The notes under the pieces were generated by a model, which saw only the letters and a list, made by a program, of their open reading frames with translations, searched no databases and was not told the origin of the DNA. Of a stretch of 57,172 nucleotides of DNA, positions 15,617-51,607 are shown piece by piece (the stretch's first letter is position 1; each line of letters opens with the position of its first letter). The DNA is from Globomyces pollinis-pini (lineage: Eukaryota > Chytridiomycota > Chytridiomycetes > Rhizophydiales > Globomycetaceae), in contig MU621189.1 in NCBI GenBank assembly GCA_025399215.1, positions 1-57,172 of the forward strand. Reading direction: 5' to 3'. A program made the translations under genes and the position numbers.

Positions 15617-16426
15617 ATGAGAGGATTAATCAACTCTACAAAATTCATCACTTCTTCCTATACTAAAAATATTAAAAAATGTAACTTATTTAATACTCAT
15701 TTTTATAGCTGCTTTATTATCAAACATTCGACTTGCTTCAAACGTTACTAAAGCTACTGATGACACTCATATCGCTAATCCTCCTAAAAAAATGAGTTAC
15801 TATATGAAAGATACTAAATCTTACAATGACCAAGTATCTCGTAACTCAGCTTACATGATGGTCGGCGCTTACAGTATGGTTGGGGCTATGGCTGCTAAAA
15901 ATGCTGTCACCGATTTCTTGGTCAATTTGTCAGCTTCTGCTGATGTATTGGCTTTATCAAAAGTAGAAGTGAGCATGGCTACCATCCCTGAAGGTAAAAA
16001 CGTTGTCATCAAGTGGCAAGGTAAACCTGTATTTATCAGACACAGAACTGCTGATGGTAATTAGAATCATAGTTCATTTGTAGAAATCGAGGAAGCAAAC
16101 AGTGTTTCCATTAATGACCTTCGTCACAAAGAAACTGATGCAGAACGTGTCAAGAATCCTTCTTGGTTGGTCATGTTGGGAATTTGCACTCATTTAGGTT
16201 GTGTTCCTGTTGGTGAAGGTTAGTACATGTTATTGACTTATTATTTTTAGGTATTTAAACTATTTTTTTCTTATTTTTAGCTGGTGAATATGGTGGTTGG
16301 TTCTGTCCTTGCCACGGTTCCCATTATGATATCTCTGGAAGAATTAGAAAAGGTCCTGCACCTCTCAATTTGGATATTCCAGAATATGTCTTGGATGAGG
16401 AAAATCAAGTCATCATTCTTGGTTAA
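15617..16426 (+). CDS. RIP1: ubiquinol-cytochrome c reductase Rieske protein
   Basis: Four exons (15617-15680, 15709-16056, 16084-16218, 16281-16426) encode 230 residues. It carries the [2Fe-2S] cluster of mitochondrial complex III. The sequence shows a Ser/Thr/Lys-rich mitochondrial presequence, a Gly/Ala-rich transmembrane and hinge region ([16 protein letters not shown]), and the cluster motifs CTHLGCVP and CPCHGSHYD, followed by [13 protein letters not shown]. All cluster ligands (two Cys, two His) and the two disulfide Cys are present. Introns are 28 and 27 nt, plus a 62-nt one composed of two abutting units just before the second cluster motif (16219-16280). Mitochondria with a working bc1 complex are implied. 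Confidence 0.95.
16219..16280 (+). other. double tandem intron in Rieske gene (32+30 nt)
   Basis: 16219-16250 and 16251-16280 are each complete GT...AG introns with pyrimidine-rich 3' ends ending in TTTTTAG. They abut directly. Removal of both joins GGT-GAA-G to CT-GGT, giving the expected Glu-Ala-Gly-Glu-Tyr-Gly-Gly-Trp of the Rieske fold. Confidence 0.85.
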
Positions 16427-49496: not shown

Positions 49497-51607
49497 TTAA
49501 TCCAACTTCTCCTTTCCCAATTTTTGATATGGATTAACTCCCTAAGATGAAAACTACCATATTAACATACAGGTCCCCTAAATAATGAAAAACAAAAGAC
49601 CTTACCATATTCTAATTTGCTGATCATCAGACGCAGATGCAAACATAGTCTTCTTTGGATTCCATGCCACACAATTCACACACGCTAACCACCATAAAAT
49701 GACTATAAATTACCAGAGTGTCCAGGGAGGTTCTCAATAATGGTTCCAAGTTCACGATGCCAAACATATACTTGATAATCTATAAATAAAATCAAAATTA
49801 ATAATTCCATTTACCTTCACTACCGCTTAACACAAAGTTTTCTTCAATTCCTCCCAAACAGGATCGAATAACAAATCTACCTTGCTTTTGCCCAAAATAT
49901 TTTTTATCAACTGTTCGATCCTTCAAATTCCACAAATGAATTTCTGATACTGACAAGTTAACCAACAGAAATTTATCATCTTTTGATAAACAAACGGAGG
50001 TTATAGGTTCATGCTCAGTTAATGAATATAATTCAGATTTATCATCAAAATCAAATACTCTGATCCTTTTCTCTGAACAAGCAATCAACTTTTTCCCATC
50101 ACTAGTCATTGCTAAATCCATAATTCTTACTCCTGGCCAATGGAATAGAATCTCTCCATTTATATTCCAATGATACATATTTTTCTCCACACTACCTGAT
50201 ACAAAACTGGAACCAGATGGATGCCAAACACATGATGTGACAGAATCTGTATGCTTGGAAAATGTCTGAATCATTTGACCAGTCTAAAAGAATTATCAAG
50301 GTGTAAATTTAATTACCTTAGTATTCCATAGTTTTAAGGTGGTATCGTTTGAAGCCGTTAATAAATACGAATCATCTGGACTCCAAGATAAATAAGAAAT
50401 TGCTTTTTTATGATCATCTAATACGTACAATATTTTAAAATTCTATATGATTAGATTGACATGATAATGTTCACTTCAACATCCCAAATAATGGCTCGAG
50501 CATCTCTAGAAGCCGACGCCAATTTAGTTCCATCATGTGAAAATGCCATGAACCAAACTTCATCACGATGTTCCTAAACCAATTAAATAATTCATAGTAC
50601 TTCCAATAAATGTGTAGTATGGTTTGGAAACTTTTCTCTTTGACATGAATGATCTACAAGCAAACATTCATTCGCATCTTCATTATGATATAAACAGTTT
50701 TGACGTTGTAATTGGAGTGCTTGATCCAATAGTATATTTAATCGATTAGGTGGAATACACATGCTTGGTAAGATAAATTCTATTCATCAATCAAAATTTG
50801 TTTTAAACTTGTTTGGGTTATCAGTAACTCGTTTCTGGATTTTTCAACACCTACATTGTAAACTTCAAAAAAAATTAAATATACCTAATAATTAGTATCT
50901 ACAAAATAGTTTGTTTACCTGGATAGTTTATATAAAGTGACATGATTACCTTGCCAGTCAATCTTTCTATTTATCTCATCAATAGAACACATTGTCAACC
51001 TAAAGTAATTAATTCTATCACTAGGATTACAAAGATAATTGATGTAATTCATCGATATTGGTCCTTAAAGGTGTTAATTCTCGTTGCAAAACTTCCAACG
51101 CTTCATCTAATTGACTTGATTGTAATAACTCGATAAATTTTTGTTTTCGTAGGTTAAATTTGAATTGCTGTTTGTCAATGTTACAAAATTAGTATAAAAT
51201 ACCTACAAGATATTTAGTTGTCAAATCCATTCACCTAAATATATTAGATCTATAATATCAACCTAAACAAGTTTAACACTGAACAAAGAACTAACCTAGT
51301 AATAAACATCATTTGGATAAATCTGATACCTAAAGATAAATACTAAACTAGTACGAACCTTTTCAGATCCTTTGAATAGATCCAATTGATCAACAATTGC
51401 ATCTAAAGCATCCCAATCCCCATTGATCAAATAATTTCTAAAAGATATCATTTGTTTTGATTCCAAAACCAAACCGGATTCGATTTCCAGTTTTTTGGCA
51501 ACATCAGAATATCCCAAATCATTTAAAGATTGTAAAATGAGTCTTACGACATCAGTATTTCGTTGATTCAAGAGGTTGGAACGATTAGGAAGTAGATCGG
51601 GGGCCAT
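49497..51607 (-). CDS. GID7: GID7/WDR26, CTLH E3 ligase subunit
   Basis: Twelve exons, high to low: 51607-51359, 51167-51031, 50999-50950, 50850-50809, 50779-50601, 50573-50475, 50442-50317, 50283-49815, 49779-49714, 49684-49606, 49577-49571, 49541-49497. Together they encode 515 residues. An N-terminal LisH ([21 protein letters not shown]) and CTLH ([17 protein letters not shown]) pair precedes about seven WD40 blades, ending in IRIWGP as in human WDR26. It recruits substrates such as gluconeogenic enzymes to the GID ubiquitin ligase. Two introns are tandem arrays of six and three units, and exon 11 is a 7-nt microexon. The frame is open upstream of the chosen ATG, but without another ATG. 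Confidence 0.88.
50851..50949 (-). other. triple tandem intron in GID7 (31+34+34 nt)
   Basis: The 99-nt intron divides without remainder into 50919-50949, 50885-50918 and 50851-50884, each starting GTA and ending AG. Two zero-length exons are implied. Joining the flanks gives [13 protein letters not shown], which aligns with the WDR26 segment EWEGK...SRSKLL. Confidence 0.85.
51168..51358 (-). other. six-unit tandem intron array in GID7 (191 nt)
   Basis: In transcript order the units are 51330-51358 (29), 51296-51329 (34), 51263-51295 (33), 51235-51262 (28), 51203-51234 (32) and 51168-51202 (35). Every unit begins GT, ends AG and abuts the next, so five consecutive AG|GT junctions have no exon bases. 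Several have clear branch-like sequences (CTAATA, ACTAAA, TAACAT). The flanking exons join in frame as [15 protein letters not shown], the expected CTLH to CRA transition of Gid7/WDR26. Confidence 0.88.

Follow-up and report, generated by a model that had tools for sequence, protein, structure and literature searches.

The DNA analysed (the window, 57,172 nt in all) is contig C100 of the 18.5-Mb, 459-contig genome of the chytrid Globomyces pollinis-pini (Rhizophydiales). Its minus strand carries a GID7/WDR26 gene at 51607-49497, identified by matches to LisH_WDR26 (PF23627) and WD40 and by the alignment of the spliced model with human WDR26 (8qbn), which covers residues 10-502 of 515. The first exon (51607-51359), which gave the PF23627 match and was covered by the 8qbn alignment, begins with the ATG at 51607, encodes the LisH and CTLH part and ends with GAAAAG. 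The exon starting the CRA part (51167-51031), likewise aligned to 8qbn, is separated from it by 191 nt inserted in phase 0 and is followed by a single 31-nt intron in the gene model (51030-51000). The alignment of the spliced protein to 8qbn runs through the position of the 191-nt sequence, with three residues fewer than in the human protein.

Direct reading of this intervening sequence (51358-51168, minus strand), referred to as array 1, bore out the claim of an earlier sequence-only reading that it divides exactly into six GT...AG units: unit 1 of 29 nt (51358-51330), unit 2 of 34 nt (51329-51296), unit 3 of 33 nt (51295-51263), unit 4 of 28 nt (51262-51235), unit 5 of 32 nt (51234-51203) and unit 6 of 35 nt (51202-51168), which sum to 191 nt. 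All five internal junctions are AG/GT, flanking units 2 to 5 on both sides, and so is the entry junction behind the exonic GAAAAG, the exit being AG/CA. The branch-motif score was above zero for five of the six units (1.3, 1.3, 0.1, 1.8 for CTAAT in unit 4, -0.0 for CTAAA in unit 5 and 2.1 for TTGAC in unit 6).

A second array is located in the same gene at 50949-50851 (minus strand) and consists of three abutting units of 31, 34 and 34 nt (50949-50919, 50918-50885 and 50884-50851), which interrupt the codon for G in WQGVEK (phase 1). Their branch scores were -2.5, 2.7 and 0.8, the first unit possessing no good branch motif. In a protein search, a deposited 384-aa protein of G. pollinis-pini showed 100% identity over 48% of the hand-read GID7 query. 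The deposited GID7 protein (P0001) is contained in the GID7 model from residue 132 onward, with the three-unit array removed whole. Its start lies downstream of both the six-unit array and the single intron next to it, and it lacks the array region and the preceding LisH/CTLH part. The GID7 models of Kappamyces sp. JEL0829 (P0003) and of a metagenome relative (P0002) begin at most a few residues after the site of the six units. In the Kappamyces model, residues near the second array are missing, as judged by eye at the protein level. No second copy of the GID7 locus was found in the genome, the window itself being the sole match at E up to 0.001. A kinase family search, an Rfam scan, a tRNA scan and base composition yielded nothing useful for the array question.

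The exact division of array 1 was confronted with chance expectations. When 40,000 noncoding stretches of 191 nt were drawn at random, none could be tiled into GT...AG units of 23-38 nt, and the same result (0/40,000 each) was obtained for stretches of 138 and 124 nt. Shorter stretches were tiled more readily, with 13, 41 and 1489 cases per 40,000 for 99, 90 and 60 nt, respectively; tilings by two units thus arise by chance often enough that one such case carries little weight by itself. Chains of six AGGT junctions spaced by 24-42 nt did not occur on either strand of 100 first-order Markov copies of the window, in which chains of four appeared at 0.09 per copy and longer ones never. The earlier statement that five AG/GT junctions are hard to obtain by chance is upheld by both tests.

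A gene-structure model, seeded from long open frames, was trained on the window together with positions 1-200000 of C1 (257,172 nt in total), the latter selected because C1 is the first contig. The model contained no bonus for abutting introns except the usual preference for AG before the donor. At a minimum score of 25, it returned 94 genes, in which 708 introns were predicted. The 596 introns used for training were 23-45 nt long (mode 28), with the donor GTA(A/T), mostly a TAG end and a branch motif YTNAY located mostly 10-16 nt before the intron end. As many as 690 of the 708 predicted introns did not exceed 38 nt, four had 39-55 nt and 14 were longer than 55 nt; the units of array 1 are accordingly of ordinary intron size for this genome, as had been proposed. 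Predicted single introns above 45 nt numbered 16, several of which may be gene fusions, notably among the longest. Three long introns, C1:115268-115194 (75 nt), C1:111654-111575 (80 nt) and C1:2883-2945 (63 nt), start with GTAAGT, a donor stronger than usual here, and most of the remaining long single introns have no such start. The 75-nt intron lies within seemingly conserved protein sequence and looks real from the reading of its translation.

In the distribution of internal exon lengths in the gene model, 23 cases fell at 0 nt, one at 1 nt, none at 2-4 nt and two at 5 nt. The 23 zero-length exons correspond to 11 arrays with 34 units in 10 genes. Five of these arrays have two units and three have three, with one array each of four, five and six units; whole-array lengths range from 59 to 191 nt. 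In three variants of the model, built without the exon-side donor preference and/or with a 30% long-intron prior, 19, 18 and 18 zero-length exons were retained and 11, 11 and 10 arrays were kept, some units being merged. Both GID7 arrays merge partly or in some variants: with flattened exon-side donor scores, array 1 had its modelled start at 51343 and was merged to 141+35 nt, and with a generous long-intron prior it was modelled as 29+127+35 nt. When the parses of array 1 were enumerated, allowing introns of 23-38 nt and no more than 45 nt of exon, five of 53 were in frame and stop-free. The best of them was the zero-exon parse with six units (-3.16), followed by one with a 27-nt exon (-4.52), which for array 1 alone is a modest preference of 1.4 log units for six separate units.

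The arrays were found in all three phases and in ordinary genes. In the window, two abutting units of 32 and 30 nt (16219-16280, plus strand) were modelled in the gene of the Rieske iron-sulfur protein, which aligned to 7rja without a gap across the site, and two units of 31 and 28 nt (11562-11504, minus strand) in a coiled-coil gene, HOOK-like from the reading of its translation. The CLK kinase gene contains an array of five units (138 nt in total) shortly ahead of HTDLKPEN, at a distance of a few residues, and the kinesin-8 motor gene a two-unit array before GATGAGKT; the alignments to 3nr9 and KIF19, respectively, are gap-free across these arrays. For GPI1, the deposited protein P0127 (611 aa) is identical to the gene model, with the three-unit array removed. 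The further array genes, named from their translations only, presumably encode a Sen1-like helicase (four units), a GDPD-like protein (three), a JmjC protein (two) and a cytochrome-b5-like protein (two). Among the best 120 of 1194 matches to the CLK protein, none was named as a Globomyces protein, so this search adds nothing on the five-unit array. Positions 1-200000 of C1 contain seven arrays, which scales to about 650 in 18.5 Mb, a rough figure that rests on one contig and includes two-unit cases. Among the matches listed in genome-wide pattern searches, two rows of AGGT-bounded, intron-sized units were longer than the GID7 array, with nine units at C4:31807-32069 and eight at C7:65413-65641.

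As a sample guarding against circularity, 14 arrays of at least three AGGT-bounded units were picked by eye on other contigs, among the matches listed, by AGGT spacing only and without use of the branch motif. The C1 chains, already present in the gene-model sample, were omitted, as were the coding repeats at C2:36466-36580 and C1:106153-106300 and a repeat at C1:21710-21921. Two chains that look coding (C4:127177 and C6:116558) were also omitted but restored in a check, and matches from C38 onward in one of the two listings, mostly given without sequence, did not enter the sample. The 60 units of these arrays had a length of 29.1 +/- 2.9 nt compared with 28.5 +/- 2.8 nt for single introns. 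A positive branch score was found in 46 of the 60 units (77%), in 31% of units with shuffled interior and in 88% of the 596 single introns. For strictly internal units the proportion was 72% (29 units, 13 arrays) relative to 31% after shuffling, and with the two coding-looking chains restored it was 49 of 66 units relative to 29%. Two-unit rows, taken as those with letters printed among the matches listed and with one coding-looking row (C25:24956) omitted, gave 85% of 34 units (17 rows) relative to 32%. A minority of units has no good branch motif.

The donors of the arrays were weaker than those of single introns. The score for positions +3 to +6 was 0.09 in arrays and -0.46 in GID7, compared with 0.94 in single introns and -1.00 in random sequence. 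Single introns preceded by an exonic AG also had a lower donor score (0.67) than the others (1.05), consistent with a trade-off in which pairing on the exon side offsets pairing on the intron side. The weakness of array donors could be explained in part by the upstream AG and in part by relaxed use. The units show the features of predicted U2-type introns, with GT...AG ends, in most cases a branch motif about 10-16 nt from the end and a genome-typical length, and because the units are dissimilar in most arrays yet look complete, it is suggested that each of them is used.

Controls with other words restrict what may be concluded from pattern counts. Chains of at least three dissimilar units occurred with a mean of 0.54 over 101 four-letter words of similar frequency; the count for AGGT was 4, and TATG and CATA reached 5 and 4, respectively. 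With an ungapped identity rule, which discarded real arrays, ATGG and TGGA ranked above AGGT. The reversed-pattern control gave 5283 matches against 1500 array-pattern matches in one of two pattern searches and 174 against 212 in the other; as TGGA-type words are commoner in this genome, raw array-pattern counts are no evidence by themselves. CTAAY was found between two AGGT words 397 times genome-wide, the scrambled YAATC 205 times and the pattern's own reversal 375 times, so there is no raw excess of the branch motif over the reversed pattern. The only pattern count in favour of the branch motif is the contrast by context, in which CTAAY and YAATC stand at 397:205 between AGGT and at 184:375 between TGGA, and the conclusions were not rested on it.

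Arrays of abutting intron-like units are a real, genome-wide feature of this genome, and their genome-wide occurrence, the longer arrays of eight and nine units elsewhere and the second array in GID7 go beyond what had been noticed from the locus alone. The best explanation, held with a probability of about 0.7 and drawn from sequence features, is that array 1 comprises six abutting units that are probably spliced out as separate introns, in no fixed order. Each unit of about 30 nt would be recognised across its 23-38 nt and excised separately, and since every removal would leave AG/GT for the rest, the order need not matter. We infer that the chytrid splicing machinery pairs splice sites by intron definition within a narrow window of about 23-38 nt, under which efficient splicing of a long insert would require that it be built as a chain of such units. 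The arrays may have originated by tandem duplication of an intron, with the AG preceding the donor and the AG at the acceptor as boundaries, or by reinsertion of an intron at the junction. Such an event would create a perfect second intron, leave the mRNA unchanged and add another AG/GT target, so that arrays would grow once begun; the units would then diverge under selection keeping the GT, branch point and AG of each.

The sequence-only reading had offered two alternatives, stepwise removal through zero-length exons and repeated intron gain at an existing junction. They are compatible and both gained partial support. For stepwise removal, the units possess the length and the GT/AG ends of introns and mostly a branch motif at the usual place, consistent with their being spliced one by one. 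Repeated gain is favoured by the growth of arrays in the gene-model sample, in which a second unit was present at an intron site with a frequency of 0.016 and a further unit, once two existed, with a frequency of 0.52, indicating that arrays grow once begun, and by alike units in a few arrays. In GID7 itself, an origin of the units as copies of one another was considered and rejected: neighbouring units resemble each other only as much as unrelated introns do, so the history of this array is not readable.

Alike units were seen elsewhere. At C12:42111-42254, among the matches listed, five AGGT-bounded units of 27-28 nt include two identical and three similar ones; this is possibly an intron array in the making, or else a minisatellite. 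The units of the two-unit row at C31:19761 are alike with p = 8e-5, and with this row included, six of 17 two-unit rows had similar units at p < 0.05, in a comparison slightly biased towards similarity because the null was drawn from single introns with any acceptor and the listed rows all end in TAG. Arrays with similar units such as those on C12 and C31 suggest tandem duplication. Moreover, an exonic AG stood before the first unit in eight of 11 arrays and in 30% of single introns (p = 0.004), an enrichment expected if duplication uses AG repeats at both intron ends. The 5' end of the CLK gene (C1:21981-21683, minus strand) was modelled with six 15-nt exons encoding RYDDR-type repeats between seven related introns of 25-30 nt. 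Only one of 3000 random sets of seven single introns was equally alike. This could be an exon-intron unit multiplied in tandem, each exon of which would be skippable without a change of frame.

An origin by subdivision would leave the proposed splicing as it is, a long ancestral intron having been divided by new AG/GT sites in a process similar to stwintronisation, with a machinery that prefers about 28 nt, and not having been built by duplication. New splice sites within an existing intron have been described in Lipomyces (PMC7138796). Furthermore, in 24 arrays other than that on C12 (65 pairs), the mean likeness of adjacent units was equal to that of random single introns, so duplication is not visible there. 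The similar or identical units of some arrays, the related introns of the CLK exon repeat and the enriched AG before the first unit speak against subdivision, which we regard as the less likely origin, though one to be taken seriously.

The removal of 51358-51168 as a single long intron in one step, with the inner AG/GT junctions as rarely used relics of duplications or insertions, appears improbable. One-step removal of long introns is possible in this genome, as single introns above 45 nt are predicted, one of them (the 75-nt case) in seemingly conserved protein sequence, and single introns have stronger donors than the inner junctions. Decay of inner units would be expected if they were functionless, yet the signals are kept in units without shared likeness: the branch motif is about as frequent in internal units as in all units (72% of 29 vs. 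75% of 55) even though adjacent units share no sequence. The mean branch scores of first, internal and last units were 0.49, 1.16 and 0.46 (samples of 6, 12 and 6), and decayed arrays should be common, whereas introns of 39-55 nt and above 55 nt made up only four and 14 of 708. The stepwise and one-step routes could coexist.

A tiny exon, or several, hidden in array 1 would mean fewer introns and a short stretch of peptide linking the CTLH part to the CRA part. The three additional residues of human WDR26 at this position and the four other in-frame, stop-free parses, with 27-42 exonic nt, agree with such a structure. With introns of 23-38 nt, however, no in-frame, stop-free parse has 3-24 exonic nt, and the best alternative, with 27 nt, scores below the zero-exon parse. 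There is also no room for residues at the arrays of the Rieske, CLK and kinesin proteins, and exons of 1-4 nt are almost absent from the gene-model sample, which makes a hidden exon quite unlikely. Chance spacing of AG/GT in AT-rich DNA, or a decayed minisatellite, can be given hardly any weight, for although two-unit tilings arise in random 60-nt stretches, coding repeats account for some of the AGGT chains (C1 near 106 kb) and a few other four-letter words form as many chains, the lack of random tilings at 191, 138 and 124 nt, the spike of exon length at zero and the enrichment of a branch motif unused in picking the listed arrays all oppose it.

The proposed removal of six abutting units resembles the recursive splicing at ratchet points of Drosophila and human, in which AG/GT acceptor and donor sites are likewise juxtaposed, exons have zero nucleotides and removal is stepwise. 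AG/GT junctions without an exonic base lie inside the intervening sequences described here, and own splice sites and branch points of the segments were found at the level of motifs (46 of 60 units vs. 31% shuffled). The animal cases mostly subdivide long introns, such as Drosophila kuz intron 3 of about 50 kb, and fly ratchet points are described as requiring a cryptic downstream exon (PMC8605326). For human, the earlier studies compiled in a table of PMC10156609 gave medians of about 196-552 kb; that paper itself also describes recursion in smaller human introns, including some shorter than 1000 nt, mostly beside conventional removal. In contrast, the arrays are 59-191 nt as a whole and, judged on length only, have no long host intron of the Drosophila type; each step would be a full intron of about 30 nt, and the runs reach up to nine units among the matches listed.

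Stwintrons of ascomycete fungi likewise combine several U2 introns in a complex intervening sequence with consecutive removal, as proposed here. They are nested, one intron lying within a splice signal of another, whereas the units of the arrays abut at AG/GT and none lies within the donor, the branch site or the acceptor of an outer intron. PMC6616335 treats U2 introns that abut and are removed by recursive splicing as a separate type, citing Drosophila work and a review. Intron gain by duplication, described for ATP2A1 and fission yeast, is similar in that a duplicated segment with a proto-splice site (AGGT; AGGC in fission yeast) yields a new intron and an unchanged protein (PMC4974935, PMC3629103). 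In the gains described there an exonic segment was copied (in potato an intron-exon stretch), whereas here whole introns would multiply in a row. The dual-specific sites of human UBC are also tandem AGGT, usable as donor and acceptor and weaker than ordinary sites, but the repeat units are described as coding monomers kept or skipped at random (PMC10809524), whereas the units here are intronic and all must go. Introners are likewise a proposed source of many introns and are described as copies spread over genes (PMC9860276); the array units are dissimilar within arrays, likeness having been measured within arrays only. The sequence-only reading knew of no array of six introns of about 30 nt, and in our literature searches of open-licence PMC papers no published array of this kind was found either.

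A broader proposition can be put forward tentatively, at somewhat less than even odds. The spliceosome of this chytrid may enforce a near-fixed intron length, so that recursive splicing in several obligate steps would be the way in which longer intervening sequences are removed. This would take place at several hundred sites, on chains of minimal introns that reach nine units or more, and the chains may be self-propagating, each AG/GT junction being the target of the next duplication.

Recursive splicing has so far been tied mostly to long animal introns. Arrays of minimal introns in a fungus with a small genome would show that ordinary housekeeping can also rely on it at the opposite extreme of size, with a limit on length, not distance, as the driving force. 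Gene finders that forbid zero-length exons may break array genes; the deposited GID7 protein, which starts only at residue 132 of the model, may be such a case. The arrays would also open intron gain to direct inspection, with probably hundreds of sites carrying from one to nine units that range from identical to fully diverged, and the gain, growth and decay of introns would be countable across such sites.
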